This document shows positions 43,689 through 63,212 of a stretch of DNA of 64,000 nucleotides, in pieces. The first letter of the stretch is position 1; every line of letters begins with the position of its first letter. Both the position numbers and the translations under genes were made by a program. The notes below the pieces were generated by a model, which was not told where the DNA came from, did not search any database, and saw nothing but the letters and a program-made list of their open reading frames with translations. Source of the stretch: Xanthomarina arctica (lineage in GTDB: Bacteria > Bacteroidota > Bacteroidia > Flavobacteriales > Flavobacteriaceae). The stretch is taken from positions 620,001 to 684,000 of the forward strand of contig NZ_BMFQ01000002.1 of assembly GCF_014638915.1 (NCBI RefSeq), read 5' to 3'.

Positions 43689-45128
43689 TTATTTTACAAG
43701 CTGTATTTCTGGTTGTTTCCAAGTACCATTATAAGCTTCTGGTTTTGGCCAGTATTCTCTAAGAACCACTCTAAATGGTCCATTAGGTGCTGGTAACCAA
43801 TTAGATTCTAAATTTTTCCCAGGAGATTCTTTCTGAAAATATATTGTGATTCCTCCATCTGCATTTTTTTTCAATTCAGATAACATAGGAGAATTAATTA
43901 AATAACGGTTGATTGGATTGGCAACCATTAAGCTTTCTGGTGAGGTATACATCGTTAAAGACCAAAAGGCATTTACAGGAGGTAAATCACCACCTTTAAA
44001 AGTTAAAGTGTAGTTGTTTGTAGCTGCATCCAATGGTTTTTTGTCTGCATCTACAGTATAAAGTGGATAGAAAGCTTCCTCTTTAGAGTTACCATAAAGA
44101 CCTAAGACATCGCCAGCCATTCTGTATAAATAATTACCAGCTATATAGTCTCTTGTTCCAAATACGTTAGCAGATGTTACTTCACCAGCTTCAACCTTTT
44201 TCATTAAACCTGCAAAAGTTACGCCCCATGCTTCTTTTATACCAGCTTCCATGGCTGCTTTAACATCCGGAGAAAGTGTTGAAACATCAATTGTTTTTCC
44301 AGCTCCTACACCTATTTTAGCAAAACGCTCCATCAATGCAACTTCAGATGGTACTGTTGGACAAAAGTTCATTACAAAATTCATCACATTAAAAAACTCT
44401 AAAGAAGTCTTTTGCTCAGCTGGCGTTAAAGGTATCATCCAGTTAACAGATGCTGAAGCAGCGGCTACAGGAGCCTTACCCAAATATTCAGATAAACCTT
44501 GTACTTTGTATTTGGCTTGTACAGCCTTTACATTATCAATATCTGCTGGGTTGAAAAGTTGTGTTCTAAAAACGACTACTCCAATTTGAGTTTCTGTTTT
44601 TATCACCTTATCAATGCCTTCAGGAGTTTCTCCTTTCCAGTTTGGTCCAACAAGCATGTATGTACCTGCTTTGTTACCTGTAGTTCTTGACCCTAGGTAA
44701 GCGAAATTATACGTGTAACTGTCTACGAATTGCACATCATAATAACGACTTTCTTCAATTTCTGGAAGGCCAATAATTAAAGGTTCGTTTGTTACATCAT
44801 ATCCAATCCATGAGTAAGGTGTGTCTGAATTTGCTGTTTGTACAGCAGTATCCGCAGCTGTATATACCTGCGCGATATTTGTAATTTGATTCCAAGGCGC
44901 TTTAAATTCCGTCCCTGTTTTGTCTACATAATAGGCATATTCCACACGGTAGTTATCTACCATTGGATACCCATAAATATAAGCATCATGAGCTATAGCT
45001 TTTATAGAATCCAGAGGTAATGTTGCAGGAGATTCCTTTGCAGGTTCTGCTGGCTTGTCTTTACAAGCATTCATTGTTACAACTAGTACCATAACAGATG
45101 CTAGTTTCATAAGATTTTTTAAATTCAT
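43689..45128 (-). CDS. DUF1254/DUF1214 lipoprotein, subtype I (copy 1)
   Basis: This 479 aa product has a signal ending in a lipobox VTMNAC (Cys22) and two domains: DUF1254 (about 45-190) with HDAYIYGYPMVDNYR and TANSDTPYSWIGYDV, and DUF1214 (about 330-475) with YRMAGDVLGLYG, LPPVNAFWSLTMYTS and NWLPAPNGPFRVVLREYWP. Both are beta-sandwich-type domains of unknown function. It is the terminal gene of module A on the minus strand. I chose the ATG at 45128 because the longer frame runs into the terminator hairpin at 45180-45212. The -7 box TACATTTG is at 45152-45159. Confidence 0.9.
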   Translation of the reverse strand: MNLKNLMKLASVMVLVVTMNACKDKPAEPAKESPATLPLDSIKAIAHDAYIYGYPMVDNYRVEYAYYVDKTGTEFKAPWNQITNIAQVYTAADTAVQTANSDTPYSWIGYDVTNEPLIIGLPEIEESRYYDVQFVDSYTYNFAYLGSRTTGNKAGTYMLVGPNWKGETPEGIDKVIKTETQIGVVVFRTQLFNPADIDNVKAVQAKYKVQGLSEYLGKAPVAAASASVNWMIPLTPAEQKTSLEFFNVMNFVMNFCPTVPSEVALMERFAKIGVGAGKTIDVSTLSPDVKAAMEAGIKEAWGVTFAGLMKKVEAGEVTSANVFGTRDYIAGNYLYRMAGDVLGLYGNSKEEAFYPLYTVDADKKPLDAATNNYTLTFKGGDLPPVNAFWSLTMYTSPESLMVANPINRYLINSPMLSELKKNADGGITIYFQKESPGKNLESNWLPAPNGPFRVVLREYWPKPEAYNGTWKQPEIQLVK

Positions 45129-45151
45129 TGTTTGTTGGTTTTTAATTAGTA

Positions 45152-45159
45152 CAAATGTA
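45152..45159 (-). promoter_or_regulatory. -7 box of DUF1254 subtype I copy 1
   Basis: TACATTTG, 23 bp before the start codon. The terminator hairpin of the preceding gene occupies the position of a -33 box. Confidence 0.48.
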
Positions 45160-45179
45160 TAGTAAAAAAAATAAAATTT

Positions 45180-45212
45180 AAAGCGACTTAAATTTAAATT
45201 CAAATCGCTTTT
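45180..45212 (-). terminator. Terminator between DUF1254 genes (repeat type 1)
   Basis: The hairpin AAAGCGACTTAAATT / AAATTCAAATCGCTTT has two mismatches. It lies 16 bp after the stop codon at 45229 and upstream of the next DUF1254 promoter. Confidence 0.75.
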
Positions 45213-45228
45213 TAAGATTTAAATAAGT

Positions 45229-46746
45229 TTATTTAACTTCTATAAACTCACCTGGCTTCCAGGTCTTGTTGAACCAACTTTCCTCGGGACCATATAAGCG
45301 AAACAGCACAGCCCATCCTCTACCTGGAATGGTTTGCACCCAATTCTTTTCATGCCCTTTTGGAGCCGTTGGGCTAAACCAAATATCAATAGTTCCATCA
45401 GCATTGGTAACAATGCCTTTGCTGGCGGTTCCTACACTTGGAAATGCTTGATCTGTCTGCAACATGGAACGCGTTTGACTGTCGTACGCCACTAAAGACC
45501 AGAAATCCTTGGCTGGAACGTTCGCCGGAAGCTGTATTTTGTAAGTTTTGGAACCATCAAGGGACATGCCTTTGGAATCTGTAGTAGCCATGACATACTG
45601 TGAACCGAGTCCTACCATTTTGAATGCCATCGCTGGGGTGATTCCTGTGTAACTGTAGTGGAATAGGTCGCGTGCAGCCAAATTGCGCACGCCTGGTTGT
45701 GATAGGAACTGGTAGCTACCGCCAACAAATGTGAAGAACCATGAGCTACCTGGTGACAAGTAGGCATCATCCATTCGAGGTTGAAACGCAATAGTTCTTG
45801 CTGCGGCATTTCCAACAGCCACGGCCTCTGTAAGCGTCTTCTTAAGTTTGTCATCAGGTGCAAAAGTTTTACCTTTTTCGATACCGATAGCAGCAAGCAT
45901 ACCTAAAATTTCTGGGCTGTAGGCCTCGTTTGGTTCTGCTTGAATAATCTCGTTAATGTCTGTATAGAAGCTATAATCGTTGCTACCAATGGTATTGAAA
46001 TCTTTGTCAGATACATCGATATACTTCATCTCTGGCTGGTTGTTGATTGCGTTTAGAGGATAAACTTTTGCGAACTTCTTTGTGTTTGCTACCGCTGTTG
46101 CTGTGCTACCATCTTTGATGAATCCACGCCAGAAATACAGGTTCTGATACGTTTGAGAGCGCAATACAAAATATCCTTGAGGCACGTCTCCCTTATAATC
46201 AGGTGGCAATAATAAATACTTGCCTCCTTTGCCTTTATCTGGTCCAGCGTTTCCGATATCACCTACATAGCGGAACCAGTGATCGTTGACGATACCCAAT
46301 ACATCAGGTGGCGTTTCTAACACTAACGGTCCGTCTTTCAGGTCCAACCACATCATACTGTAAATACTTTGCGTGTTGGCCGTTAAAAAAAGTGACCTCG
46401 CATTCATCAATTCTTCCATTATTAAAACCGTCTGGTTGTCGCCTCCCATGCTCTTGATGCCTCGACCAGCCGCGTGGACTGACGCACCAGGTAAAGCGTA
46501 AAGGAAGGCTTCCACTCCATGCATGAAGTCAAGATAATCATAAATCTTGTCGGCAGTGTCTTGGGTCGGAGAGCCTTGTGGAAATTCTAGCGTACCGATT
46601 CGAGATTCAATCTTTGCGGGTGTCGTGATAGACTCCGGGATAGGGGTCGTCATTTTCATCTTCGACGACTTTTGGGCATGACTTACATTTACTACAAATG
46701 CACCAATAAGTACTGCAGCAAGAATGTGAATTGATTTTTGTTTCAT
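45229..46746 (-). CDS. DUF1254/DUF1214 secreted protein, subtype II (copy A)
   Basis: This 505 aa protein has a Sec signal (to about residue 25, VSHAQ) and no lipobox. DUF1254 (about 55-200) shows DKIYDYLDFMHGVEAFL, IGNAGPDKGKGGKYLLLP and YFVLRSQTYQ. The DUF1214 part (about 385-505) shows NVPAKDFWSLVAYDSQTRSMLQTDQ-type sequence, split into shorter stretches, and ends WFNKTWKPGEFIEVK. It is the closest to a soluble periplasmic member in module A. The base use is less A/T-rich than that of its neighbours, which may mark a separate history. It follows the OMP gene by 42 bp. Confidence 0.9.
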   Translation of the reverse strand: MKQKSIHILAAVLIGAFVVNVSHAQKSSKMKMTTPIPESITTPAKIESRIGTLEFPQGSPTQDTADKIYDYLDFMHGVEAFLYALPGASVHAAGRGIKSMGGDNQTVLIMEELMNARSLFLTANTQSIYSMMWLDLKDGPLVLETPPDVLGIVNDHWFRYVGDIGNAGPDKGKGGKYLLLPPDYKGDVPQGYFVLRSQTYQNLYFWRGFIKDGSTATAVANTKKFAKVYPLNAINNQPEMKYIDVSDKDFNTIGSNDYSFYTDINEIIQAEPNEAYSPEILGMLAAIGIEKGKTFAPDDKLKKTLTEAVAVGNAAARTIAFQPRMDDAYLSPGSSWFFTFVGGSYQFLSQPGVRNLAARDLFHYSYTGITPAMAFKMVGLGSQYVMATTDSKGMSLDGSKTYKIQLPANVPAKDFWSLVAYDSQTRSMLQTDQAFPSVGTASKGIVTNADGTIDIWFSPTAPKGHEKNWVQTIPGRGWAVLFRLYGPEESWFNKTWKPGEFIEVK

Positions 46747-46788
46747 GATCTGTGTATTTATATAATAATTGATTTAGTATTATGTGTT

Positions 46789-47601
46789 TTATTTAGTAGC
46801 TCCCGATTTCTTCAAAAGAGACGTAGGTAACATGACTGTTGCTTGCACCCTTAATTGAGATTCTGGCCCAAAATCTGGTGAAATTACATTGTAATAATAT
46901 CCTGCTTGAAAATTGATAGGAAGTTTGCCACCTAGTTTTACAATTTTACCAATACCAGCTCCAATTGGAACGGTCCATTGTTGTCCACTTTCTGCTTCCC
47001 AATTGGCCGTGATGATTGGAGACGTATTTATATACAACCCTTTTGGTAAATTATAATTAGCAAAAACTTGAGCATAAAAATTATTTACATCTTGTACATC
47101 TGAAGGGCCTGCTACAGAAAAAGTGTTGTTAATAACACCTCCATATACCCATTTTTTACCCATTTTTAATACCACTATTGAGGGACCTACACTTAATTTT
47201 TTAGAACCAAAATCAGCATTTCCTGCAGGGAAGGCAATAATAGGCCCAAACCCCCAAACAATTCCTTTAGATTTTGGTACATAAAATGCTGTAAAATTAA
47301 TATTACTTACCCCTGTAACTGAACCAGAAGCTTCTGTAAAATCAGGTTGCCATAAAATTGGAATAATAGTTCTAGTAATAAGTTTGCCATCAAAAAAAGG
47401 CAATACAGGTTGAATGTTTAAGATATTTTGTGTTCTATCATTATTAGGACCGTATCCAAAATTAGTATTGTTTTGAAACGGAAAACTCATAATGTTGGCT
47501 AAAGGGTTTTGTGCTGCTTTCGCCAATTCTTCTTGAGTTTCTTGAGCATTCATAGTAGCAATGAATAGCATAAAGCATAATAAAGTAATTTTGTTTTTCA
47601 T
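46789..47601 (-). CDS. Outer-membrane channel-like protein, 'neuromedin U'-type (copy A)
   Basis: This 270 aa product has a signal peptide (1-19, MNAQ). The mature part consists of amphipathic strands with tell-tale turns: NIMSFPFQNNTNFGYGP, NILNIQPVLPF, LITRTIIPILWQPDF, VGPSIVVLKMGKKW and QAGYYYNVISPDFGPESQLRVQATVMLP. The N-terminal SxPFQNNxNF...NILNIQPVLPF motif is that of a family annotated as 'neuromedin U' or porin-like in Proteobacteria, usually next to DUF1254 genes. A beta-barrel in the outer membrane is the likely structure. The paralogue is at 57092-57901. It is co-transcribed with the following OMP gene. Confidence 0.8.
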   Translation of the reverse strand: MKNKITLLCFMLFIATMNAQETQEELAKAAQNPLANIMSFPFQNNTNFGYGPNNDRTQNILNIQPVLPFFDGKLITRTIIPILWQPDFTEASGSVTGVSNINFTAFYVPKSKGIVWGFGPIIAFPAGNADFGSKKLSVGPSIVVLKMGKKWVYGGVINNTFSVAGPSDVQDVNNFYAQVFANYNLPKGLYINTSPIITANWEAESGQQWTVPIGAGIGKIVKLGGKLPINFQAGYYYNVISPDFGPESQLRVQATVMLPTSLLKKSGATK

Positions 47602-47641
47602 GATTTTTATTTGAATTTTATTAATTAATCTGTGTAAATAA

Positions 47642-48697
47642 TTATTTTTTAGCAGCTTTATTTCCTGTTAAAGCATTGGTAATAAACGTTAGGTTGATTT
47701 GAAAATAATTTTGTTTTAAACGTTGCTTACTGCCATATGTAGAACCATATTTACCAACCGCTTGTAATCTGTTTGCCCAAAGCCAATAACCCACTTGTGC
47801 ACCTACAATACCATTCTTATCTTTTACAGAACCATCCCAGTAAACTCCAGAACCTTTATCGTCTCCAACTTGCCAGTTATTACCGCCATAGATACCAACC
47901 GATAGTTTGTCGGTAAAATACATATCTATCCCATAGTCTAATGATAAACGGTTCCCCGGTGTTACTTCTACATCTTTGATTTTTCCAATAATTTCATAGG
48001 TAGGTGCGAACATTACAGCTAATGCTTTAGAGGTTTCTCCTTTAATTTTCATTGGATAATAGTAGGTAAAGACTTGAAATATATTGCTCCAATAGCCTAA
48101 TCCTGTATTGTTATTGCCTCCTGGAGTATATTCTCCTGTAGGCGCATAAAACATATAGCCTGCAGTAATGTCAAACTCTTTCAAACCCCAAGATAAATAC
48201 ACTGGCATGACATTAAAATCTGAAAATCCAGAAACATTACTAATACTACTTCCTTCTTGGTTGGAACCTTCAATAATACCACTTCTATTATATGCAATAT
48301 CTGCATTTACCGTATTATAAGCAATAGAGATACCAGTAAGAAAAGTGGCACCTAAAACTTTTTGTTTTGCAACCCACATTAATACTGGATTATTAATGTA
48401 TCCGCTAACATCGGTATTTAATGCAAAATCGGCTCCTGTTGGACTTTCAAATTCAGTCACTTCTTCGCCATTTTTATTAAAATACTTATTACCCGAAAGA
48501 AATATATTATAATCTAGTAGAACCAAGCCACTTGCTGGTGCTGGATCTGCAAAATCACGAATACTTATAATTCCAGGTAAATAATGACCAGTTTGTAAAG
48601 GAGATGCTAATTTAGGTTTCTCTTGTGCTTGTATTTTAAAAGTTGAACAGGTGATAAACACCAATAAAACCATTGCTTTTGTAATTGTTATTTTCAT
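47642..48697 (-). CDS. SphA/phenol-MetA-type outer-membrane protein (copy A)
   Basis: This 351 aa protein has a signal peptide (to about residue 25, IQAQ) and a beta-barrel of the PF13557 'phenol MetA degradation / transporter' type. Motifs are GHYLPGIISIRDFADPAPASG, LLDYNIFLSG, VSGFSDFNVMPVYLSWG, FDITAGYMFYAPTGEY and LSLDYGIDMYFTDKLSVG. Such barrels let hydrophobic compounds cross the outer membrane. The start ATG overlaps the stop TGA of the small protein gene by four bases (ATGA), so translation is coupled. A central stretch of about 350 bp is nearly identical to its paralogue at 56010-57077. Confidence 0.85.
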   Translation of the reverse strand: MKITITKAMVLLVFITCSTFKIQAQEKPKLASPLQTGHYLPGIISIRDFADPAPASGLVLLDYNIFLSGNKYFNKNGEEVTEFESPTGADFALNTDVSGYINNPVLMWVAKQKVLGATFLTGISIAYNTVNADIAYNRSGIIEGSNQEGSSISNVSGFSDFNVMPVYLSWGLKEFDITAGYMFYAPTGEYTPGGNNNTGLGYWSNIFQVFTYYYPMKIKGETSKALAVMFAPTYEIIGKIKDVEVTPGNRLSLDYGIDMYFTDKLSVGIYGGNNWQVGDDKGSGVYWDGSVKDKNGIVGAQVGYWLWANRLQAVGKYGSTYGSKQRLKQNYFQINLTFITNALTGNKAAKK

Positions 48698-48933
48698 TTT
48701 TTTATATTTAACTGAACTCTTATCTCCTCTTCCAGACTCCGCTGCAACACTTCCATATCGGCAAACTCCTCCCTATTTATATTCCTGTCATTTTTTCTTT
48801 CCAGGACCATAGACCTACATAGCATGTAGTCTGAACACATATCCCGGAAGTTCTCATCGATTTGAAACAAGTCATCAATCTCCTCTTCTAAATCCGGAAA
48901 TAGTTGAATAATAGAATCGACTTCTTTACGCAT
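48694..48933 (-). CDS. Small helical cytoplasmic protein of the DUF1254 cluster (copy A)
   Basis: This 79 aa protein is without signal. An N-terminal half VDSIIQLFPDLEEEIDDLF is followed by IDENFRDMCSDYMLCRSMV and a charged helical end. The pattern 'FPD.EE.ID.LF..DENFRD.CSDY..C' is shared with the copy at 61172-61402 and, as I recall, with unannotated small proteins of Proteobacteria. It is almost certainly all-alpha and forms a two-helix coil. The stop codon overlaps the OMP start by four bases. A TACATTTA-like -7 box is at 48962-48969. The function is unknown; a regulator partner is plausible. Confidence 0.75.
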   Translation of the reverse strand: MRKEVDSIIQLFPDLEEEIDDLFQIDENFRDMCSDYMLCRSMVLERKNDRNINREEFADMEVLQRSLEEEIRVQLNIKK

Positions 48934-48994
48934 GTGAGGTTGTTAATTTAAAATAGCCGTGTAAATGTAAGAAAACTTATAAAAAACAGTAAGA

Positions 48995-49020
48995 ATGGAA
49001 CGGTTATGAAACGGTTCCAT
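48995..49020 (-). terminator. Hairpin between regulator A and small gene
   Basis: ATGGAAC...GTTCCAT with inner GTT/AAC pairing and a C-C mismatch. It has no clear T-run, so it could end the regulator transcript or act as an operator. Confidence 0.45.
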
Positions 49021-49110
49021 TTAGAATTTAATGTCTTAATAATTAGCGTGTTGTATCTTGAGAATAAGGGTTGATACTCATTTGGACCACAGAGAACTAT
49101 TTCTACTAAG

Positions 49111-50748
49111 TTATGTTATATTAACACCTGTCTTTTTAGCGCTAAAAATAATATTGTCAACTAAAGTTTCATCTAATAGAAACGAACTTAGGTAAAGTTT
49201 AAGATTTGCGAGTATTTCTGGGAATTTTTCATTTAATAGAGCTACTTCAGGTTTCGAATCAAGGATTAAACCCAATTGTCCTTTGGCTGCAGCTATGAGC
49301 AATGGTATTATGTAAACATCTTCTGACGCTTTCATCTTTTGAGTATAATGCAATGCTTCTTCGTATTCACCATTTTGATAATAAGCGAAGTAAAAACCTA
49401 AATAACACCACCAAGGGCAGTATGGGTTGAGATTTAATGCCTCCTTTAGTAAAACTAATCCACGTTTATATTCTCCGATACAATTATAAGCAAAACCAAG
49501 AGTACTTTTTATAGATGGAGAAAGTGGGCCGAGTTGCATACTATAGTCAAGCGCTTCAATAGCTTCGTTTTTCTTACCCAAATAAACATTCGCCCACCCC
49601 CGGGTGATATTTCCAAATTGAGATGCAGGTGCTATGCTCAAGGCTTTATCTAATAGCTTTAAAGCTTCAGCTATGGGATCTTCAACAGTTTTATACCCAA
49701 GTGAATAAGTAAAAAGATTTAAATCGCCCAAAATGATTAGGCACATCACATTATTTGGATCTTTAAGTAAAGCTTTTTCAAGAGCCTTTCTACACAATAT
49801 ACAATCTGCTTCTGAATGTGTTATTTGCGTAAGATTAAACCACAATATAGCATCAAATGTTTGCAAATCTTGCTTCATTTCACCCCCTACCAAACGTACT
49901 GTGTCATTTATAATCAGTCCATATTGACCACTTAATAAGGCAAATACATCATCATTTATCTGGTCTTGAATGTCTATAGTTTTGTCTTTTTGTAAATCGT
50001 GCGAATAATCTTTGGACCAGATTTGCATGCCATTCATGGTTTCGACTAAACCGACATTCACTCTAATCTTCGTAGCAGAGCGTTTAACAGAACCCACTAT
50101 AACATAATGAACTCCTAAGTCGGCTCCTACTATTCGGATATCTTCAATATGAGTCGCGTATTTTAATGTTGAAAAATGGGCCACGACAGCAATTTCTTCA
50201 GAATTGCTAAAGATTCGCGTCAGTTCCTCTCCAAAACCATCCACAAAAAATTGATACTCATCACTTGGCAATAAGTTGCGAAAGGGCAATATGGCAAGCG
50301 TGAGTTTTGATCTGGAATAGGTATTTGCTTTGGTGTTACTTGGTGAATCTGATTTACCTTGTATGTCTGCCTTTGACGTTATAATATGAGATCGAAATAC
50401 GGGAACATAAGATCCTTTAATTACTTCAATTTTAATAGGATCGGTCATTCCTGCCTCTAGATAATATGTATGTAATAACCGTCTAAGTCTTCCTGCGTTA
50501 ATTCTAATGGTTGCGTTGGTTTGCGGGTTAAAATTTGCCGATTTCCCCAAGCCATTGACAGCTATAATATATTCCTTTAAGCTATCAGTACGGCTAGCCA
50601 GTGTTTCTTCTACAATAAATTTTAAAAAATTACTTAACACGGAAGAACGAGAAAATAGGTCGCTGCTTAGAATGCGATCCAATTCCTCCAAAATTTCCTG
50701 CTTCGAATAATTAGGTAAGATGTGTTTTCCTGCTACGTTCTCTGGCAT
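49111..50748 (-). CDS. Winged-helix-like/TolB-N/TPR regulator (copy A)
   Basis: This 545 aa cytoplasmic protein has an N-terminal region (about 10-120), with SVLSNFLKFIVEETLASR, SLKEYIIAVNGLG and NATIRINAGRLRRLLHTYY, resembling the DNA-binding-like part of 'adenylate cyclase/TPR' proteins of Proteobacteria. A TolB-N/FlgO-like domain follows (about 145-255, LAILPFRNLLPSDEYQFFVDGFGEELTRI and VGSVKRSATKIRVNVGLVE). Then come TPR repeats (about 290-520, for example AIEALDYSMQLGPLSPSIKSTLGFAY). It has no transmembrane helix. It lies at the head of module A and is paralogous to 61572-63212. It is probably the dedicated regulator of the DUF1254 module. Confidence 0.75.
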   Translation of the reverse strand: MPENVAGKHILPNYSKQEILEELDRILSSDLFSRSSVLSNFLKFIVEETLASRTDSLKEYIIAVNGLGKSANFNPQTNATIRINAGRLRRLLHTYYLEAGMTDPIKIEVIKGSYVPVFRSHIITSKADIQGKSDSPSNTKANTYSRSKLTLAILPFRNLLPSDEYQFFVDGFGEELTRIFSNSEEIAVVAHFSTLKYATHIEDIRIVGADLGVHYVIVGSVKRSATKIRVNVGLVETMNGMQIWSKDYSHDLQKDKTIDIQDQINDDVFALLSGQYGLIINDTVRLVGGEMKQDLQTFDAILWFNLTQITHSEADCILCRKALEKALLKDPNNVMCLIILGDLNLFTYSLGYKTVEDPIAEALKLLDKALSIAPASQFGNITRGWANVYLGKKNEAIEALDYSMQLGPLSPSIKSTLGFAYNCIGEYKRGLVLLKEALNLNPYCPWWCYLGFYFAYYQNGEYEEALHYTQKMKASEDVYIIPLLIAAAKGQLGLILDSKPEVALLNEKFPEILANLKLYLSSFLLDETLVDNIIFSAKKTGVNIT

Positions 50749-50798
50749 TGAAATGTCCTATATAAGTTGTATAACTTTGAATTTTTTATTTAATAAAT

Positions 50799-50806
50799 CA
50801 AATGTA
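50799..50806 (-). promoter_or_regulatory. -7 box of regulator A
   Basis: TACATTTG, 51 bp before the start codon. The following sequence upstream (on the minus strand) is conserved with the regulator B promoter at 63268-63275. Confidence 0.5.
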
Positions 50807-50840
50807 GTTTTTTTATTTTAAACTCGTGTTTCTAATAAAA

Positions 50841-50874
50841 AAAAAGCGATTTGAATAAATCCAAATCGCTTTTT
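50841..50874 (-). terminator. Terminator after DUF1254 copy at 50895 (repeat type 1)
   Basis: AAAAAGCGATTTG / CAAATCGCTTTTT around AATAAATC, 21 bp after the stop codon. Confidence 0.9.
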
Positions 50875-50894
50875 ATAATCTTAATTAAAATATG

Positions 50895-52484: not shown

Positions 52485-52508
52485 GAGTTTGTTAGTTTAA
52501 TATTAGAT

Positions 52509-52516
52509 CAAATGTA
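52509..52516 (-). promoter_or_regulatory. -7 box of DUF1254 copy B1
   Basis: TACATTTG, 25 bp before the start codon. The hairpin at 52535-52570 sits where a -33 box would be. Confidence 0.5.
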
Positions 52517-52534
52517 AAAAAAACTTTTAGAATG

Positions 52535-52570
52535 AAAAAGCGACTTGAATATATATTCAAATCGCTTTTT
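52535..52570 (-). terminator. Terminator of the DUF1254 relic (repeat type 1)
   Basis: AAAAAGCGACTTGAATATA / TATTCAAATCGCTTTTT, with one mismatch. It lies 23 bp after the relic's stop codon (52594), the same distance as at the intact genes, and therefore was its terminator. Confidence 0.82.
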
Positions 52571-52593
52571 AAATGTTTACTTATAGTATTCTA

Positions 52594-52644
52594 TTATTTA
52601 ACCAATTCAACTTCGCTTGGTCTCCATGTTTTATCTATCCAAAT
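52594..52644 (-). pseudogene. 3' relic of an eighth DUF1254 gene
   Basis: Read on the minus strand this 51-bp stretch encodes WIDKTWRPSEVELVK (after one Ile) and a stop, the exact C-terminal end of subtype II DUF1254 proteins (compare LDKTWRPSEIMLVK and IDKSWKPGEIELVK). Upstream of the Trp the frame loses similarity and holds stops. The relic keeps its terminator hairpin. It shows that a DUF1254 gene was lost or overwritten here. Confidence 0.85.
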
Positions 52645-52679
52645 TAAATAGTCTAATTCAAAGAAACTGTAACAAAAAA

Positions 52680-54286: not shown

Positions 54287-54298
54287 TTAATATTATTA

Positions 54299-55888: not shown

Positions 55889-56009
55889 AATTTTAACCTA
55901 TTTTTAATTTTTTACTAAATGATTATATTTTTAACTCATTCAATTTTACTTGATTTTAATTGTTATCTAATTAGGGTTCAAGTTACGCATTTTTAAGAAT
56001 ATTCTAAAT

Positions 56010-57077
56010 CTATTTACTAGATGACGTTTTGGCTGCTTTATTTCCAGTTAAAGCATTGGTCATAAAAGTTAAGTTAATCTGAAAGTAATTTTGCTTTAAG
56101 CGTTGCTTACTACCATAAGTGGAGCCAAATTTACCAATAGCTTGGAGTCTATTCGTCCAAAGCCAATATCCTACTTGTCCACCTACAATACCATTCTTGT
56201 CTTTAATAGAGCCATCCCAGTAAACACCAGAACCTGTGTCGTTACCAACTTGCCAGTTATTACCACCAAAGACGCCCACAGATAATTTTTCTGTAAAATA
56301 CATATCTACGCCATAGTCTAATGATAAACGATTTCCTGGTACCACTTCCACATCCTTAATTTTTCCTATAATTTCATAAGTAGGCGCAAACATAACAGCC
56401 AATGCTTTTGAAGTTTCTCCTTTAACTTTCATTGGATAATAATAAGTAAAGACTTGAAAAATATTACTCCAGTAGCCTAATCCTGTATTATTATTCCCTC
56501 CTGGAGTATATTCTCCTGTAGGTGCATAAAACATGTAGCCTGCGGTAATGTCAAACTCTTTTAAACCCCAAGATAAATACACGGGCATGACATTAAAATC
56601 TGAAAATCCAGAAACATTACTATTACTACTTCCTTCTTGGTTGGAACCTTCAATAATACCACTTCTATTATATGCAATATCTGCATTTACCGTATTATAA
56701 GCAATAGAGATACCAGTAAGAAAAGTGGCACCTAAAACTTTTTGTTTTGCAACCCACATTAATACTGGATTATTAATGTATCCGCTAACATCGGGGTTTA
56801 ATGCTATATCGGCTCCTGTTGGACTTTCAAATTCAGTCACTTCTTCGCCATTTTTATTAAAATACTTATCACCCGAAAGAAATATATTATAATCTAGTAG
56901 AACCAAGCCACTTGCTGGTGCTGGATCTGCGAAATCTCGAATACTTATAATACCAGGAATATAATGTCCTGTTTGTAATGGTGATGCAAATTTAGGAGTT
57001 TCTTGGGCCTGTACTTGAAAAGTAAAACCAATCATCAACACACTTAGAACTAATGCTTTTGTAATTGATATTTTCAT
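56010..57077 (-). CDS. SphA/phenol-MetA-type outer-membrane protein (copy B)
   Basis: This is the paralogue (355 aa) of the protein at 47642-48697 with the same signal peptide, barrel motifs and length (four residues more at the C-terminus). From about 56584 to 56930 the DNA is nearly identical to 48204-48550 of copy A (six mismatches in 347 bp by hand count). The flanking parts of the gene differ far more, including the 5' end and the last third, so the copies have exchanged sequence by gene conversion. The signal is cleaved at about residue 25 (QVQAQ). It is followed by DUF1254 subtype II copy B2 and preceded by the other barrel gene with 14 bp between. Confidence 0.88.
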   Translation of the reverse strand: MKISITKALVLSVLMIGFTFQVQAQETPKFASPLQTGHYIPGIISIRDFADPAPASGLVLLDYNIFLSGDKYFNKNGEEVTEFESPTGADIALNPDVSGYINNPVLMWVAKQKVLGATFLTGISIAYNTVNADIAYNRSGIIEGSNQEGSSNSNVSGFSDFNVMPVYLSWGLKEFDITAGYMFYAPTGEYTPGGNNNTGLGYWSNIFQVFTYYYPMKVKGETSKALAVMFAPTYEIIGKIKDVEVVPGNRLSLDYGVDMYFTEKLSVGVFGGNNWQVGNDTGSGVYWDGSIKDKNGIVGGQVGYWLWTNRLQAIGKFGSTYGSKQRLKQNYFQINLTFMTNALTGNKAAKTSSSK

Positions 57078-57091
57078 AATCAGAACTTATT

Positions 57092-57901
57092 TTAGTTTGG
57101 AAATAAAAAGGCTACTTGAATTCTTAATTGAGATTCTGGTCCATTATCAGGTCTTACAACATTGTAATAGTAACCGGCTTGTGCATTAATAGGAAGTTTT
57201 CCTACACGTACTAATTTACCAAATCCAGCTCCTAAGGGCACTGTCCATTGATTCCCTGATGTAGCTTCCCAATTAGCAGTTATAATAGGCGCAGTATTGA
57301 TGTACCATTTTTTTGGTAAATTCTTCACCGCAAAAATTTGTGAGTAAAAATAATTTACATCAGCAGCATTTTCAGATCCTGCAAACGACCAAGTATTTTG
57401 AAGGATACCACCAATTGTCCATCCTTTTGGTTGAACTAATAAAACAACAGAAGGTCCTGCAGACCATTTATCTGTTCCTAAATAATCGCTAGTTGCAGTA
57501 GGAATACCTACAGCTACACCTCCACCATAAATAAGTTTAGTCGCTTTTTTAGGAGTCAAAAATAAGCTTAAACTAATATCTCCCAATCCGTATTCACTAT
57601 CGTGTTCTCCTACAGGTTGAGAGATTAATGGAATAATTGTTCTGGAAATTAAATTAAATTTATCATTAATTGAAATTGGAATTACCGGTTGAATATTCGT
57701 AGTATTCTGCGTACGGTTATATGGTCCTACTCCAAAATTTACATTGTTTTGTATTGGAACACTTATCATACTTGCGATAGGGTTCTGAATTTTTTTCTCA
57801 AGATCGGAAGCTGAATCTGTAGCAGCTGGTTTTTCCTCCTGAGCAAAAATACTAACACTACTTAGAAGAAGTAAGCACAATAAATAATTAAGTTTTTTCA
57901 T
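57092..57901 (-). CDS. Outer-membrane channel-like protein, 'neuromedin U'-type (copy B)
   Basis: The 269 aa product has a signal peptide (1-20, SIFAQ), an Ala/Ser/Asp-rich linker, and the family motif MISVPIQNNVNFGVGP...NTTNIQPVIPI (about 45-70). Amphipathic strands follow, such as FNLISRTIIPLISQPV and GAGFGKLVRVG, with the C-terminal QAGYYYNVVRPDNGPESQLRIQVAF. It is a paralogue of 46789-47601, about half-identical by eye, and shows no gene-conversion tract. It probably forms an outer-membrane barrel and is co-transcribed with the SphA-type barrel gene (14 bp apart). The 140 bp upstream separate it from the DUF1254 gene. Confidence 0.82.
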   Translation of the reverse strand: MKKLNYLLCLLLLSSVSIFAQEEKPAATDSASDLEKKIQNPIASMISVPIQNNVNFGVGPYNRTQNTTNIQPVIPISINDKFNLISRTIIPLISQPVGEHDSEYGLGDISLSLFLTPKKATKLIYGGGVAVGIPTATSDYLGTDKWSAGPSVVLLVQPKGWTIGGILQNTWSFAGSENAADVNYFYSQIFAVKNLPKKWYINTAPIITANWEATSGNQWTVPLGAGFGKLVRVGKLPINAQAGYYYNVVRPDNGPESQLRIQVAFLFPN

Positions 57902-57989
57902 TAGTTTTAAAGTTTGTTACTGTCCATTTGCTTTTATAGCATAATGCAGATAATTATTTGTGAATATAAATTTAGGAATCCGTAAAAAA

Positions 57990-58028
57990 ATAAGGGAATG
58001 GCTCATTTAAGCAGGTCATTCCCTATTC
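57990..58028 (-). terminator. Terminator after DUF1254 copy B3
   Basis: AGGGAATG...CATTCCCT stem flanked by A-run and T-run, 12 bp after the stop codon at 58041; the loop is 16 bases. Confidence 0.6.
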
Positions 58029-58040
58029 TATAATATCGTA

Positions 58041-59546
58041 TTATTTCACCAATTCAATTTCACCTGGTCTCCATGATTTGTTTATCCATGGTTCTAGAGG
58101 TCCATACATTCTTAGTATACTAAACCAACTTTTTCCAGGAAGTGTTTGTAACCAGTTATTTTCTTTTCCTGCTGGTGCTTTTGGTCCAAAATACAGATCG
58201 TAAGATCCGTCTTTATTTTTCTCAAAACCTTTAGATTGACTTCCTGCTGTAGGGAATGGTTGATCTGTTTGTAATAACGAGCGTGTTTGTGTATCGTAAA
58301 TCGTTACTGCCCAAAAATCGTTTACAGGAACATTTGGAGGCAAATGCAACTTGTATGTTTTAGAACCATCAAAAGTTTTCTTATCTGCATCTAAATACGC
58401 AATGGCATAATCAGATCCAGCTCCTGCATGTGTTACTGCCATAGCTGGTGTTACTCCTGTTGCATTATAGTAAAAAATTACACGAGCATCTAAATTCATA
58501 GCACCATTGTCTTCAAACGACGTGTTTTTATTGGCATAACCCATTGTCCAAGAACTATTTGTATCTGGATAAATATATACACCTTCAATACGTGGCTTGT
58601 AAGTAATTGCTCTTGCTGAAGCCGCGCCTATTACGGCCGCTTCATTAAGTATTTTAGTCATTCTAGCGTCCGGAGCAAAAGGCTTACCTTTCACTATTCC
58701 GATAGATGCTAATAAACCTCTAGCTTCAGAGTCTATAGCATCGATAGGTTCTACTTGCACTAAAGTATTAAGGTCTTCATAGAAACTAACATCGTTATGA
58801 ACAAGGGTACTATATTTTTTTCCTGAAAAGTCAACAAACTTGGTTGCTGGTGGATTATCGGCCTTAGATAACGGATAAATCTTAAGATTTGACTTTATAT
58901 TTCCAACTGCTTTAGGCAATCCATCTTTAATAGAGGCACGTAAAAACATTAAATTATTATAGGTATCAGTCTTAATTACAAAATAACCTTCAGGAACCGT
59001 ACCTGTATATCCTGGTGGTAACCATAAATATTTTCCACCTTTTCCTTTGTCTGGACCTATCGCTCCCATATTGCTTATAAATCTAAACCAAGCATCATCA
59101 ATAAAGCCTAACATTCCAGGTGGTAATTCAACCACTAATGGACCTTCTTTAAGATCGATATATGTAAGCGCATACATTGTAGATGTATTTCCTGTTAAAT
59201 ATAAAGACTCCGATTTAAGTAATTGTTCGGTAATAGACACCGTATTACTCGTTGCTCCTATGCTAGCATTCCCTTTACGCATAGCGTTAAGCGACCCAGA
59301 ACCTTGATTATCAAGAAAAACTTGGACTGCACGCATACGATCTAGATTATCATACACCGTTTCTACTGTTGCATCTGTTGGTACACCATCGAAAAATTCT
59401 AATTTCCCAATAGGAGTTTCTACCTCATTAGCAATACCAATTACTTTCAAATCTATATCTGAAGGTGATTGCGCATAACTTGGCAATGTAACTACAGCAC
59501 CAATAAGCACAATTGCTAAATAATTTAATGGTTTTTTAATCATCAT
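58041..59546 (-). CDS. DUF1254/DUF1214 secreted protein, subtype II (copy B3)
   Basis: The 501 aa protein has a Sec signal (to about residue 25, PSYAQ) and no lipobox. DUF1254 (about 50-190) shows VETVYDNLDRMRAVQVFLDNQG, YFVIKTDTYNNLMFLRASIKDG and GPDKGKGGKYLWLPP. The DUF1214 part (about 380-501) shows VTPAMAVTHAGAG, KLHLPPNVPVNDFWAVTIYD and MYGPLEPWINKSWRPGEIELVK in pieces. It is close to its neighbour 59570-61093, from which it is separated by 23 bp; the two form one transcript. The start can be either of two adjacent ATG codons (59546 or 59543). Confidence 0.92.
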   Translation of the reverse strand: MMIKKPLNYLAIVLIGAVVTLPSYAQSPSDIDLKVIGIANEVETPIGKLEFFDGVPTDATVETVYDNLDRMRAVQVFLDNQGSGSLNAMRKGNASIGATSNTVSITEQLLKSESLYLTGNTSTMYALTYIDLKEGPLVVELPPGMLGFIDDAWFRFISNMGAIGPDKGKGGKYLWLPPGYTGTVPEGYFVIKTDTYNNLMFLRASIKDGLPKAVGNIKSNLKIYPLSKADNPPATKFVDFSGKKYSTLVHNDVSFYEDLNTLVQVEPIDAIDSEARGLLASIGIVKGKPFAPDARMTKILNEAAVIGAASARAITYKPRIEGVYIYPDTNSSWTMGYANKNTSFEDNGAMNLDARVIFYYNATGVTPAMAVTHAGAGSDYAIAYLDADKKTFDGSKTYKLHLPPNVPVNDFWAVTIYDTQTRSLLQTDQPFPTAGSQSKGFEKNKDGSYDLYFGPKAPAGKENNWLQTLPGKSWFSILRMYGPLEPWINKSWRPGEIELVK

Positions 59547-59569
59547 TATTATTTTAAATTATTATTTTA

Positions 59570-61093
59570 TTATTTAACTAATTCAATTTCTCCTGGTTTC
59601 CAAGATTTGTCAATCCAAGGCTCTAATGGTCCGTACATACGTAAAATACTAAACCAACTTTTACCCGGTACAGTTTCTAACCAATTATTTTCTTTTCCCT
59701 TTGGAGCCTTTGGTCCGAAATACAGATCGTAAGATCCATCTTTATTTTTTTCAAAACCTTTAGTCTGACTTCCTTTTGTTGGGAATAACTGACTTGTTTG
59801 TAACTGGCAACGTGTTTGAGTATCGTAAATCGTAACAGCCCAGAAATCGTTTACAGGTACATTTGGAGGTAAATGCAATTTATAGGTTTTAGATCCATCA
59901 AAAGGTTTATCGTTATTATCTAATGTTCCAATCGCATAATCAGATCCAGCACCTGCATGAGTTACCGCCATTGCTGGTGTTACACCACCTGCATTGAAGT
60001 AGAAAAATGTACGGGCATCTAAATCCATAATACCATCTGCTTCAAACGACGTGTTCTTGTTAGCATAACCCATATCCCAATTCATACCAGAACCTGGATA
60101 GATTTCTACACCTTCAATACGTGGTGCATAGGTAATTGCACGACCTGCGGCATTACCTAGGGTTGCTGCTTCTGTAAGTAGTTTTTGCATTCTTGCATCA
60201 GGAGCAAATGGTTTTCCATTTACAATACCAATGGCCGCTAATTCTCCACGAATTTCAGCATCGATAGCGTCTTCTGGTTCACCTTGAACAATTGTGTTTA
60301 ACATATTGTAGTACTCTAAAGTACTTGGGAAAATAGTTTGGAAAGATCGACCAGACATATTTACCAATTCAGTAGGTGCTGGATTCGCATTATCTTTTAA
60401 AGGATACACTCTTAATCCTTGTTTAAAATTATCTGTTGCAGCTTCTAAACCTTTAGCAATTGAACCTCTCAAGAAAATAAAGTTTCTGTTTGTTTTTGGT
60501 TTTAAAATAAAATAACCTTCAGGAATTTCACCAGTATACCCTGGAGGGATCACAAGATATTTTCCACCTTTACCTTTATCTGGACCTACAACACCCATAT
60601 TGCCTACAAAACGTTGCCAAGCATCGTCCATAAAACCAAGCATACCTGGAGGAAGTTGGATAACTGTTGGACCATCTTTTGCTAAATCTGTCCAGAAATA
60701 AGCATACATGGTAGAGGTATTAGAAGTAATCACTGGTGTGCGTGAATCCATTAACTGCTCCCAAATAGCAATTTTGTTAGGTGCATCGGCACCTTGTTGT
60801 GCTAATGCATATTGAAGACTGTAAATTGAAACAGCTCCAACATTATCAAGAAAAACATCTACGCCACGAGCACGGTCAAGATAATCGTATACTAAGTCAC
60901 TTGTATTTCCAACAGGTACACCATCGAAAAATTCTAAGTCACCTGCAGCAGTTTTTACTTTGTTTGCTATGGATGCCGCTTCTGTTTTCTCTGCTTCACT
61001 TAACTTACTATAATCAGTTTGTGCGTAAGTTGGCAGTGTAGTAAAAGCCCCAATAAGCGTTATTGCAAGATAGTTTAATGGTTTTTTAATCAT
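59570..61093 (-). CDS. DUF1254/DUF1214 secreted protein, subtype II (copy B4)
   Basis: The 507 aa product starts at the ATG at 61093 (MIKKPLNYLAITLIGAF), where the signal peptide of the sister gene also starts; the longer frame begins at a TTG. The signal ends at about residue 24 (PTYAQ). DUF1254 (about 55-195) shows SDLVYDYLDRARGVDVFLDN, DPTVIQLPPGMLGFMDDAW and GPDKGKGGKYLVIPP. The DUF1214 part (about 385-507) shows NVPVNDFWAVTIYDTQTRC and ends IDKSWKPGEIELVK. It is the first DUF1254 gene of module B, placed 78 bp after the small protein gene. Confidence 0.92.
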   Translation of the reverse strand: MIKKPLNYLAITLIGAFTTLPTYAQTDYSKLSEAEKTEAASIANKVKTAAGDLEFFDGVPVGNTSDLVYDYLDRARGVDVFLDNVGAVSIYSLQYALAQQGADAPNKIAIWEQLMDSRTPVITSNTSTMYAYFWTDLAKDGPTVIQLPPGMLGFMDDAWQRFVGNMGVVGPDKGKGGKYLVIPPGYTGEIPEGYFILKPKTNRNFIFLRGSIAKGLEAATDNFKQGLRVYPLKDNANPAPTELVNMSGRSFQTIFPSTLEYYNMLNTIVQGEPEDAIDAEIRGELAAIGIVNGKPFAPDARMQKLLTEAATLGNAAGRAITYAPRIEGVEIYPGSGMNWDMGYANKNTSFEADGIMDLDARTFFYFNAGGVTPAMAVTHAGAGSDYAIGTLDNNDKPFDGSKTYKLHLPPNVPVNDFWAVTIYDTQTRCQLQTSQLFPTKGSQTKGFEKNKDGSYDLYFGPKAPKGKENNWLETVPGKSWFSILRMYGPLEPWIDKSWKPGEIELVK

Positions 61094-61171
61094 AATTTCA
61101 ATTATTAACAATGGTTTTGTTTATTAAATTTTATTTGTAAATCGCTCAACTTTACCCGAATGAACGTGCAA

Positions 61172-61402
61172 TTAAGTTTGAGATTGAAGGACCTTTATAA
61201 TGTCTTCTTTTAAAATGAGTTGTAATGTTTCGTACTCATTAATCTCCGCTTTATTTTTATGTTCTGCTATTTTTCTTTGTAATATCATACTTGTGCACAG
61301 GTCATAATCGGAACATAAGTCCCGGAAATTTTCATCGTTTTGAAAAAGAAAATCAATTCTCTCTTCAAAATCTGGAAATTGTTGCACAATTTTTAAACGC
61401 AT
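61172..61402 (-). CDS. Small helical cytoplasmic protein of the DUF1254 cluster (copy B)
   Basis: The 76 aa product is the paralogue of 48694-48933. Conserved are IVQQFPDFEERIDFLF and NDENFRDLCSDYDLCTSMILQRK, followed by a charged helical tail. I start at the ATG at 61402, since the longer frame begins at a TTG. In copy A the gene is coupled to an OMP gene by overlap; here the next gene is a DUF1254 gene 78 bp away. A near-consensus -7 box TACCTTTA is at 61433-61440. The function is unknown; it is conserved alongside the regulator and the DUF1254 genes. Confidence 0.75.
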   Translation of the reverse strand: MRLKIVQQFPDFEERIDFLFQNDENFRDLCSDYDLCTSMILQRKIAEHKNKAEINEYETLQLILKEDIIKVLQSQT

Positions 61403-61466
61403 TTTAAGTCTTGTAAATTTCAATTAATACAGTAAAGGTACAACGTTGAACGAAAATTATAATGAT

Positions 61467-61499
61467 TAAAAATCCATTTAACTGTTAAATGGGTTTTTA
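61467..61499 (-). terminator. Terminator of regulator B
   Basis: A stem CCATTTAAC / GTTAAATGG centred on one T with A-run and T-run extensions, about 75 bp after the regulator stop codon (61572). Confidence 0.75.
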
Positions 61500-61571
61500 A
61501 CATACTAAAAACAAGTTAGTTATATATATGTTTGATGTTTTCTTACTCTAATTCGAGTACTGGAAATAGAT

Positions 61572-63212
61572 TTAGTGGAGTTGAAGCCCTGCCTTTTTAA
61601 GTCCAAGAATAATTTCCTCAACCAAAGAACGGTCGAGTATAAATGAGTTGAGATACATTCCAAGATTCGCTAAAATCTCTGGAAATTTTTTATTTAAGAT
61701 GTTTATTTCTACTCGCGCTTCCAATACCATTCCTAATTGCCCTTTAACAGCCACCATTAGCAAAGGTATTACGTAAACATCTTCTGAGGCATTCATTTTT
61801 TGTGCATATTTGAAAGCTTCTTCATATTGTCCGTTATGATAAAAACCAAAGAAAAGTCCCACATAATACCACCACGGACAATAGGGGTTGAGATTTAAAG
61901 CTGCCTGCAACAAGGCATGACTACATTTATACTCACCTACACAGGAATATGCAAAACCAAGCCCTCCCATAGTTGAGGGAGAAAAAGATGGAGAAGCAAG
62001 TTGCTCACTGTACTTTAATGATTCAATAGCTTCTTTTTTCTTACCTAAATGAATGTGTGCCCAACCGCGTTCCATGTGTGCATATTGCGATAAAGGTGCT
62101 ATTCGGATTGCTTTTTCTATGTATAGATTGGCTTTATTGATAGGATCTTCTACAGTATAACCCATGGAATAGGAAGAAAGATATAGATCTCCCAATATTG
62201 ACAAACACATCACATTATTCGGATCATTTTCTAAGGTTTTTTCTAAACCTTTTATCGCCTCTAAGAAGTTCTCTTCAGAATGCGTTAATTGCGCATGATG
62301 AAACCATAAAACAGCATCGAAAGCTTGTAAATCTTGCTTCATATTACCTTCAACCAAACGCATGGTATCCTTAATAATAAAACCATAATGGCCACTTAAT
62401 AAAGCAAAGACATCGTTATTAATCTGGTCTTGAATATCCATTATTTCATCATCTTCCAAACTATGGATATAATCTTTAGTCCAAATTTGCATGCCATTAA
62501 CGGTTTCTCCCAGGCCTACACTCACTTTAATTTGCTTTGCTGAGCGTTTAACAGCACCAGCTATTACATAGTGAACCCCTAACTCAGATCCTACAACACG
62601 AATGTCTTTAGGATTAGCAACGTACTTGAGCGTAGAAAAATGAGCAATTACATCTAAATCTTCAGAAGTACTAAAAACTCGGGTAAGCTCTTCGCCAAAT
62701 CCATCTACAAAAAATTGATAGTCCTTGTTTGGTAATAAGTTACGAAAAGGAAGCACGGCAAGAGTGAGTCTTGATCGCGAATATACAACTGTATCATTAA
62801 CTACTGTCGTTGTCTTTTCCCTTAAATCCTCTGTTGATTTTTCTATAACTTGTGTTCGAAATACGGGTACATAGGTCCCTTTAATAACCTCAATTTTTAT
62901 ACTATCTGTAATGCCAGGTTGTAAATAATATTCGTTTAATAATCTTCTAAGTCTTCCAGCATGAATGCGAACAACAGCATCTGTTTGTGGGTTAAAATCC
63001 ACAGATTTACCCAAGGCACTCACAGCAATGGTGTATTCCTTTAAGCTATGTGTATGGCCTTCTAAAGTTTCCTCTACAATGAATTTTAGAAAATTACACA
63101 ATACGGCCGTGCGAGAAAAGAGTTCACTGTTTAGAATACAATCCAATTCCTTGAGAATATCCTGTTTCGAATAATTGAGTAAAATGTGATTTTCTGCGGC
63201 GTTATCTGGCAT
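61572..63212 (-). CDS. Winged-helix-like/TolB-N/TPR regulator (copy B)
   Basis: The 546 aa protein has the same order as its paralogue at 49111-50748. First is an N-terminal DNA-binding-like region (about 10-120, AVLCNFLKFIVEETLEGH, SLKEYTIAVSALGK and DAVVRIHAGRLRRLLNEYY). Then a TolB-N/FlgO-like domain (about 145-260, LAVLPFRNLLPNKDYQFFVDGFGEELTRV) and TPR units to the end (for example AIRIAPLSQYAHMERGWAHIHLG). No transmembrane helix is seen, so it acts in the cytoplasm. It heads module B and has its own promoter (63268-63275). A sensor of the module's transported or degraded compound is a reasonable guess only. Confidence 0.78.
   Translation of the reverse strand: MPDNAAENHILLNYSKQDILKELDCILNSELFSRTAVLCNFLKFIVEETLEGHTHSLKEYTIAVSALGKSVDFNPQTDAVVRIHAGRLRRLLNEYYLQPGITDSIKIEVIKGTYVPVFRTQVIEKSTEDLREKTTTVVNDTVVYSRSRLTLAVLPFRNLLPNKDYQFFVDGFGEELTRVFSTSEDLDVIAHFSTLKYVANPKDIRVVGSELGVHYVIAGAVKRSAKQIKVSVGLGETVNGMQIWTKDYIHSLEDDEIMDIQDQINNDVFALLSGHYGFIIKDTMRLVEGNMKQDLQAFDAVLWFHHAQLTHSEENFLEAIKGLEKTLENDPNNVMCLSILGDLYLSSYSMGYTVEDPINKANLYIEKAIRIAPLSQYAHMERGWAHIHLGKKKEAIESLKYSEQLASPSFSPSTMGGLGFAYSCVGEYKCSHALLQAALNLNPYCPWWYYVGLFFGFYHNGQYEEAFKYAQKMNASEDVYVIPLLMVAVKGQLGMVLEARVEINILNKKFPEILANLGMYLNSFILDRSLVEEIILGLKKAGLQLH

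Follow-up and report, generated by a model that had tools for sequence, protein, structure and literature searches.

A total of 15 genes, all on the minus strand, occupy positions 43689-63212 of a 64,000-nucleotide stretch of the genome of Xanthomarina arctica, a marine flavobacterium (Flavobacteriaceae; assembly GCF_014638915.1, contig NZ_BMFQ01000002.1, positions 620,001 to 684,000 of the forward strand); this whole stretch is referred to here as the window. The genes comprise two for a regulator (REG), two for a small protein (SM), four for barrel proteins, and seven intact DUF1254/DUF1214 genes, and they are arranged in two blocks that both start with REG followed by SM. The reading developed here, at a probability of roughly 0.6, is that a local regulator-small protein pair controls an envelope operon, with each of the two blocks having its own one-component regulator and envelope cargo. 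Positions given without a label are window coordinates, Lnnn denotes a fetched neighbourhood, and Gnnn denotes a genome.

Gene layout of the two blocks

Read from 63212 downwards, block 2 begins with REG2 (61572..63212), the product of which consists of an N-domain (about residues 14-123), a middle region, and C-terminal TPR, with no transmembrane helix. It is followed by SM2 (61172..61402; 76 aa from the ATG), DUFb5 (59570..61093) and DUFb4 (58041..59546), both DUF1254/DUF1214 genes with a Sec-type leader, the 'neuromedin U'-type barrel gene NMU2 (57092..57901), the Phenol_MetA_deg barrel gene SPHA2 (56010..57077), DUFb3 (54299..55888) and the divergent DUFc (52721..54229), both DUF1254/DUF1214 genes with a lipoprotein-type leader, a short remnant (52597..52641), DUFb2 (50895..52484; DUF1254/DUF1214, lipoprotein-type leader), and a terminator-like hairpin 3' of the block (50841..50874). 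Block 1 then runs from REG1 (49111..50748) through SM1 (48694..48933; 79 aa), which overlaps the start of SPHA1 (47642..48697) by 4 bp, to NMU1 (46789..47601), DUFb1 (45229..46746; DUF1254/DUF1214, Sec-type leader), and the a-type DUF1254/DUF1214 gene DUFa1 (43689..45128; lipoprotein-type leader), and it ends at a terminator-like hairpin (43632..43665) with a stem close to that of the hairpin at 50841-50874. The leader types of the DUF1254 proteins were assigned by eye. For DUFa1, which lies in a 504-aa open reading frame, the ATG at 45128 is a likelier start than the TTG at 45203 because a lipobox-like leader results.

The open reading frames confirm an earlier sequence-only reading of the window in that the fifteen genes lie on one strand, and all seven DUF1254 genes that it counted as intact encode both DUF1254 and DUF1214 above the curated Pfam cut-offs. 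The relic of an eighth such gene that it proposed comes down to just 15 codons, and these match the C-terminal end of b-type DUF1254s, with E 0.004-0.034 in comparisons within the window. Its description of the blocks as two copies of one module holds for the parts list and for the shared REG-SM start and does not hold for the rest: the barrel order is reversed, the DUF1254 content is different, and the identities of paralogous pairs differ, at 91% for SphA, 81% for DUFb2/b3, 63-64% for REG, 53-58% for SM, and 52% for NMU. By eye, the regions 5' of REG1 and REG2 are alike over about 80 bp, a terminator remnant included, and the blocks look like the outcome of tandem copying of units with a shared start and end, followed by recombination.

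Same-strand terminator-like hairpins also occur within the blocks, one following DUFc (52706-52679) and one following DUFb1 (45211-45180), and each block may therefore be more than one transcript; a terminator scan returned 18 sites compared with 11.7 (standard deviation 4.3) in shuffles. Related hairpins with a GCGATTTGAA-like stem follow DUFb1 (45180-45211), DUFa1 (43632-43665), and DUFb2 (50841-50874), and a degraded fourth copy seems to be present 5' of REG2, near 63330. Past the final hairpin, 41581-43481 carries two genes of like orientation, one for a DUF6515 protein and one for a flavin monooxygenase-like protein.

Association of regulator, small protein, and DUF1254 genes in two phyla

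The REG-SM-DUF1254 arrangement recurs in two further Xanthomarina species (L100 and L101) and in another flavobacterial genus (G515, locus L158). The gene order is REG-SM-158 aa-DUF-DUF-NMU in L100, REG-SM-DUF-DUF-DUF in L101, and REG-SM-157 aa-DUF-DUF-NMU in L158. By their coordinates, the loci of Xanthomarina sp. F1114 and F2636L are those of G301 and G300, two congeners, and were counted once. In all five clear Bacteroidota copies, SM lies just 3' of REG and 5' of DUF1254 genes, with a REG-SM gap of 169-189 bp, which supports the proposed co-conservation of regulator, small protein, DUF1254 genes, and a barrel within this phylum. Eight genomes of the genus were covered, including one at 75% completeness; a full-length REG is encoded in three and DUF1254 in five. 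The 157-158 aa protein between SM and the first DUF1254 gene (L100, 10299-10775; L158, 9725-10198) carries a leader and has no Pfam match, and no counterpart lies at that place in the window.

Searches with one or two SM sequences returned 1 of 296 phylum genomes, no plasmid, no viral contig, and two loci in named genomes. The restriction of SM to the genus, seen in these searches alone, was discarded when a profile built from four copies found SM in plasmids. A profile search of 349 family genomes gave matches in eight at E <=0.01, with strong ones confined to the window genome and G515. The matches in G420 (E 0.009) and G226 (E 0.007) lie outside any module and were rejected as members, and they look like insertion-sequence OrfA proteins. 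The match in G025 (3e-4) is likewise outside any module, and those in G352, G566, and G590 are weak.

Beyond the phylum, the comparison covered plasmids. Plasmid records matched number 566 for REG relatives, 245 or 258 (depending on the query) for b-type DUF1254, 156 for NMU, and 7 for SphA. The four-copy SM profile matches L108 (E 3e-6), L109 (2e-5), and L111 (4e-3), and in alphaproteobacterial plasmids a divergent SM is found together with REG, often along with DUF1254 and a 'neuromedin U' barrel, such that the association also stands outside Bacteroidota. For 25 plasmid loci around NMU, DUF1254, or SphA matches (26 were fetched; L104 overlaps L138 and was left out), SM is present in 9 of 10 with a REG N-domain and in 0 of 15 without one. 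It should be noted that the profile used for this count incorporated L108 and L111, with L108, L109, and L111 having already been found by the four-copy Xanthomarina-type profile, and that the plasmid loci are related and thus are not independent events. Among 60 of the 138 SM records that were listed, many of them strains of Sinorhizobium medicae and S. meliloti, a listed REG lies <=10 kb away in 17/20 and a listed DUF1254 in 13/19 of those with one listed, and the two are <=10 kb apart in 15 of the 20 records with both listed; a miss here does not prove absence, since the best place per record alone is listed. An NMU-centred sample (18 of 40 listed rows; 156 records) contains DUF1254 by profile in 10/18 loci (L136 has one more by annotation, at its edge), REG in 9/18, and neither in 5/18. 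Four further SM-centred loci all contain REG, and DUF1254 was found in two of them. In 22 loci selected for REG, SM occurs in the same locus for 17 of 23 REG genes. The REG-SM gap is 155-314 bp in L103, L111, L140, and L142 and 2-7 kb in other loci.

The closest parallels to the window are rhizobial plasmid clusters (S. meliloti L110; Rhizobium leguminosarum L106), in which REG, SM, DUF1254, and NMU lie within about 11 kb. These differ from the window in having a REG with a transmembrane-like segment and a cargo that adds a DUF900 hydrolase, DUF2092, and DUF2147; moreover, REG identity to the window is 24-30%, while b-type DUF1254s reach up to 66%. In Azospirillum (L142, 9882-22296), REG-SM is followed by a formylglycine-generating enzyme, a HAD hydrolase, MoxR/DUF58/VWA/BatD, and an arylsulfatase, and in R. 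rhizogenes (L107, 9980-21491), DUF1254 genes adjoin an arylsulfatase-MoxR-VWA set resembling that one. On plasmid pSMED02 of S. medicae (L129, 812-5755), several whole and partial DUF1254 frames lie about 9-14 kb from an NMU barrel, and REG and SM were not found at that locus.

SPHA1 and SPHA2 match Phenol_MetA_deg (PF13557) above the cut-off. The sequence-only reading had counted the SphA-type barrel among the parts of its module; that barrel does not occur in L100, L101, or L158, or in the DUF1254 loci of the plasmid comparison, and with seven plasmid records overall it was rejected as a core component. In Bacteroidota, L075, a locus without REG, combines NMU and two DUF1254 genes with a 33% match to SphA. 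The co-occurrence in other genomes on which that reading had staked its module was found in its main part, for REG-SM beside DUF1254, in Bacteroidota and in plasmids and often with NMU, the SphA barrel being optional. For NMU1 and NMU2, no Pfam family is matched above the cut-off, and the 'neuromedin U' label is thus that reading's own; elsewhere, DUF1254 often adjoins such barrels.

A number of observations weigh against a fixed module. In L111, L140, and L142, SM adjoins REG but no DUF1254 was found; the cargo of L140 is efflux-like. G222 and G025 each have a REG relative that is 8-10 kb away from DUF1254 genes and has no SM, and SM is also lacking for three more N-domain proteins (in G222, G051, and G062), giving five such proteins in Bacteroidota in all. 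In a set of 17 fetched Bacteroidota loci that contain DUF1254, a REG or N-domain match occurs in three and SM in none, and two congeners carry DUF1254 without REG. The parts are accordingly associated without being exclusive to one another.

As an alternative, DUF1254 tandem duplicates could have clustered passively beside an unrelated regulator with no functional module; in its favour, most fetched Bacteroidota DUF1254 loci have no REG or SM nearby and DUFb2/b3 and the SphA pair are recent duplicates. The association is nonetheless repeated in another flavobacterial genus and in Alphaproteobacteria, and a conserved element adjoins REG. Further, a tree of 59 DUF1254 proteins (the seven of the window and those of 31 loci) joins DUFb1 to rhizobial genes (support 100/97), both DUFb4 and DUFb5 to Martelella (100/99), DUFb2/b3 to Flammeovirga (97/88), and two genes of L100/L101 to S. 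meliloti (100/100), with DUFc on a long branch of unsure placement. The window DUF1254s thus fall in several subclades interleaved with alphaproteobacterial ones, which argues that the array is not a simple tandem amplification. Passive clustering is regarded as very improbable.

The regulator and an operator-like element beside its gene

Conservation of the REG N-domain extends across Flavobacteriaceae and Rhizobiaceae, 12 sequences being 36-75% identical to REG2, and the domain has no match in Pfam or the Protein Data Bank (PDB). Its predicted structure consists of helices, including one with VRIxAxRLRxxLxxYY, and then a beta hairpin, with a confidence score (pLDDT) mostly <50, a model too poor in this domain for a structure search. 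The helix and hairpin resemble those that form the recognition helix and the wing in winged-helix domains, which suggests that REG may bind DNA. Comparison with the OmpR/PhoB-type winged helix gave a weak hhalign match (P 0.007, probability 5%) that is in register over helix and wing, and the global alignment gave nothing. The 5% probability, the low pLDDT, and the missing PDB relative all count against the winged-helix assignment.

Behind the N-domain, relatives show TolB_N/FlgO similarity below the cut-off (FlgO in L103, L111, L136, and L140; TolB_N in L103); the REGs of the window have no Pfam TolB_N/FlgO match and a weak NCBIfam TolB match (E 0.024). REG matches at E 0.001 occur in 164 of 296 phylum genomes, mostly from about residue 145 onward among the matches listed; of these, besides the genome itself, G222 and G025 alone matched from residue 17 to 542. 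The middle and C-terminal architecture is that of TolB-N plus TPR proteins, a group known as COG5616, and REG differs from it in the N-terminal part, matches to which are rare among those listed. In CadC/ToxR-type one-component regulators, an N-terminal DNA-binding domain and a C-terminal sensor are separated by a transmembrane helix. REG resembles these in its putative N-terminal DNA-binding domain and C-terminal sensor, and differs in that the sensor is TolB-N/FlgO-like plus TPR and that the window REGs, like those of L100, L101, L069, and L070, have no transmembrane segment by hydropathy. A transmembrane-like segment is present in the REGs of L103, L106, and L108-L111 and in the shorter L072 and L073, and in the alphaproteobacterial ones it comes after the N-domain, as in the CadC/ToxR arrangement.

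By Pfam, no cyclase catalytic domain is present in the window REGs, in any of the seven relatives annotated 'adenylate cyclase' (L103, L106, L110, L136, L140, L141, and L143), or in the REGs of L111, L142, and L158. A class III adenylate/guanylate cyclase identity of the family was ruled out, the catalytic domain being absent in all that were scanned. The seven scanned rhizobial 'adenylate cyclase' proteins beside SM look like REG-family regulators, and this annotation needs checking. One of these, from S. meliloti (L103, 5881-8109), carries the N-domain twice in tandem and, again by Pfam, lacks a cyclase domain.

The gaps between REG and SM are 65-69% alike in alignments; TTTAACSGTTAAGTAACCGTRTAA is common to L100, L101, and L158, and a variant of it lies in the REG1-SM1 gap of the window. 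The exact 18-bp sequence TAACSGTTAAGTAACSGT occurs at five sites over eight whole genomes, all adjoining REG: twice each in G300 and G515 (inverted before REG and again between REG and SM), and once in G301. It is absent as an exact copy from the four congeners without a full-length REG. Shuffled sequences reached the observed number of pattern matches in 1/100 (L100), 0/100 (L101), and 1/200 (L158) cases. In the window, AACCGTTNNNTAACCGT has six matches at <=3 mismatches against 5.15 expected, one of which is exact (49000-49016), and the full 18-mer at <=3 mismatches has none when written without S and one when written with S. Palindromes lie in both REG-SM gaps of the window. The one between REG1 and SM1 (48994..49021) is an operator-like near-palindrome with 12-nt arms (92%; p 0.015) in which AACCGT is repeated 11 bp apart. 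The inverted repeat between REG2 and SM2 (61466..61500; 17-nt arms) aligns with the element of the relatives, and its like was reached in 0/200 random chains.

Several results speak against an operator at these sites. The pattern was built from the REG-SM gaps of L100 and L101, and then L158, so that three of the five exact sites were bound to match; the independent support is the two TAACSGTTAAGTAACSGT sites before REG and the lack of exact copies elsewhere. A reversed pattern gave 11 matches at <=2 mismatches (not split by exactness) against nine for the real one, and matches at that threshold are therefore chance. The window genome has no TAACSGTTAAGTAACSGT match at <=2 mismatches, carrying diverged versions, and the repeat at 61466-61500 could be a terminator instead. 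Moreover, the 11-bp direct repeat is not unusual in a single gap (p 0.31-0.50), and the gaps of relatives have no beyond-chance palindrome at the element (p 0.19 for L158, 0.63 for L100), the palindrome of the L101 gap (p 0.05) being located away from it. Our guess is that the two regulators of the window genome, having diverged, may each have come to use a site of its own.

The cargo and its possible function

The window genome encodes nine DUF1254 genes in total, the other two being on another contig (C1:1189027-1191109). Of the 296 phylum genomes searched, 14 have any DUF1254 gene; none has more than this one, and the next two have six each. The other pair (L068, 7772-11902; G000:C1, about 1187771-1191901) comes after a patatin-like phospholipase gene, and one of its members is 81% identical to DUFb5. 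The DUF1254/DUF1214 family is a structural-genomics orphan with solved folds. DUFb1 matches the two-domain protein VPA0735 (PDB 2p3y, 3vb9; E 1e-69), and DUFa1 matches VPA0106 (3u07; E 3e-43) in family and fold; these PDB entries are titled uncharacterised or hypothetical, and the difference here is that seven paralogues lie beside dedicated regulators. DUFb1, the one protein of the seven that was modelled (pLDDT 75.5), matches 2p3y with E 5e-41 and a TM-score of 0.72 by query length. Its strong matches are just the uncharacterised proteins 2p3y, 3vb9, 3u07, and 6ans, the last from Burkholderia. The remaining Foldseek matches are weaker, mostly to beta-sandwich proteins with poor TM-scores, and matches to Cry proteins (E 1e-5 to 7e-4) were set aside at a TM-score of 0.14.

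No reaction for DUF1254/DUF1214 was found in the open-access literature searched. DUF1254 genes appear in iron, NnrR, and bacteriocin-response transcriptomes, the available portions of which assign them no function by assay and label one of them phosphatidylserine decarboxylase (PMC3751524, PMC6710368, PMC12791056). The same searches, with subscription papers mostly outside their range, returned no description of the module and no paper pairing any of DUF2092, DUF900, DUF2147, DUF1254, neuromedin U, and DUF1214. New here are the 18-bp operator-like element and the absence of a cyclase domain from the seven scanned 'adenylate cyclase' relatives.

According to the model proposed here, each block would be opened by its own one-component regulator. 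REG would act as a soluble transcription factor, its N-domain binding the putative 18-bp operator adjoining its own gene and the part behind it sensing a ligand or partner, and it would control both itself and the SM-DUF1254-barrel genes downstream, so that the envelope operon would be inducible. SM would be a small partner dedicated to REG, probably acting in feedback or as an adaptor. The analysis shows the gene content and order, the linkage of REG and SM in two phyla, the conserved element adjoining REG, and the lack of a cyclase domain; from there we infer DNA binding, autoregulation, and this partnership, and the regulatory half of the model is reasonably supported. The cargo of DUF1254/DUF1214 lipoproteins, periplasmic proteins, and outer-membrane barrels may act together in binding, processing, or transporting a small compound of hydrophobic or amphipathic character. 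Neighbouring genes (alpha/beta hydrolase, DUF2092, arylsulfatase, and patatin) point to envelope lipid or ester chemistry, the evidence for the uptake or modification of a hydrophobic compound that the sequence-only reading suggested being of this neighbourhood kind, and this substrate half, DUF1254 activity included, is largely conjecture and on balance doubtful.

A SusC/SusD polysaccharide utilisation locus was rejected, as no SusC or SusD Pfam match occurs among the 15 genes. Alternatively, the operon could serve the catabolic uptake of one particular compound (hydrophobic, sulfated, or esterified), DUF1254s acting as periplasmic enzymes and the barrels as porins. This would fit the Phenol_MetA_deg barrels, the alpha/beta hydrolase (DUF900 where scanned, in L110) and arylsulfatase/HAD neighbours in Alphaproteobacteria, the formylglycine-generating enzyme beside Azospirillum REG-SM, and the carbohydrate-module-like and other beta-sandwich folds among the weak Foldseek matches (E 0.01 or worse). 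By Pfam, however, the 15 genes include no cytoplasmic catabolic enzyme or inner-membrane importer, and the strong fold matches go to uncharacterised proteins alone; such an operon is possible but unlikely. The alphaproteobacterial neighbours also include mechanosensitive channels, OmpA, DUF2092, DUF2147, and HlyD efflux parts, which would be consistent with an envelope-stress or lipid-homeostasis module in which REG senses envelope damage and DUF1254s protect or remodel lipids rather than serve nutrient uptake. The transmembrane-like segment of alphaproteobacterial REG could report on the periplasm, the patatin-like gene precedes the genome's other DUF1254 pair, and the Listeria DUF1254 gene lmo1241 is tabulated among genes responding to the bacteriocin garvicin KS in the part of that study available (PMC12791056). 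The window REG has no transmembrane segment and would therefore sense something cytoplasmic, and seven paralogues are, in our judgement, many for a stress function; a stress role is held to be about as improbable as catabolic uptake.

Returning to regulator-small protein control of an envelope operon, a broader version can be put forward tentatively and with less than even confidence: REG-SM may be a portable two-gene signalling unit of Bacteroidota and Alphaproteobacteria, in which a new class of DNA-binding N-domain is set on a TolB-N/TPR sensor, soluble or membrane-anchored, with a dedicated small partner or antagonist and interchangeable envelope cargo, DUF1254 (for a hydrophobic or sulfated compound) being a frequent cargo. 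Together, a candidate operator, a regulator, and its small partner, with conservation across two phyla, offer ways to approach DUF1254. The REG-SM partnership, which recurs in distantly related soil bacteria, makes the regulation of DUF1254 proteins, and through regulation their function, testable, and if the inducer is identified, the DUF1254 substrate may follow.

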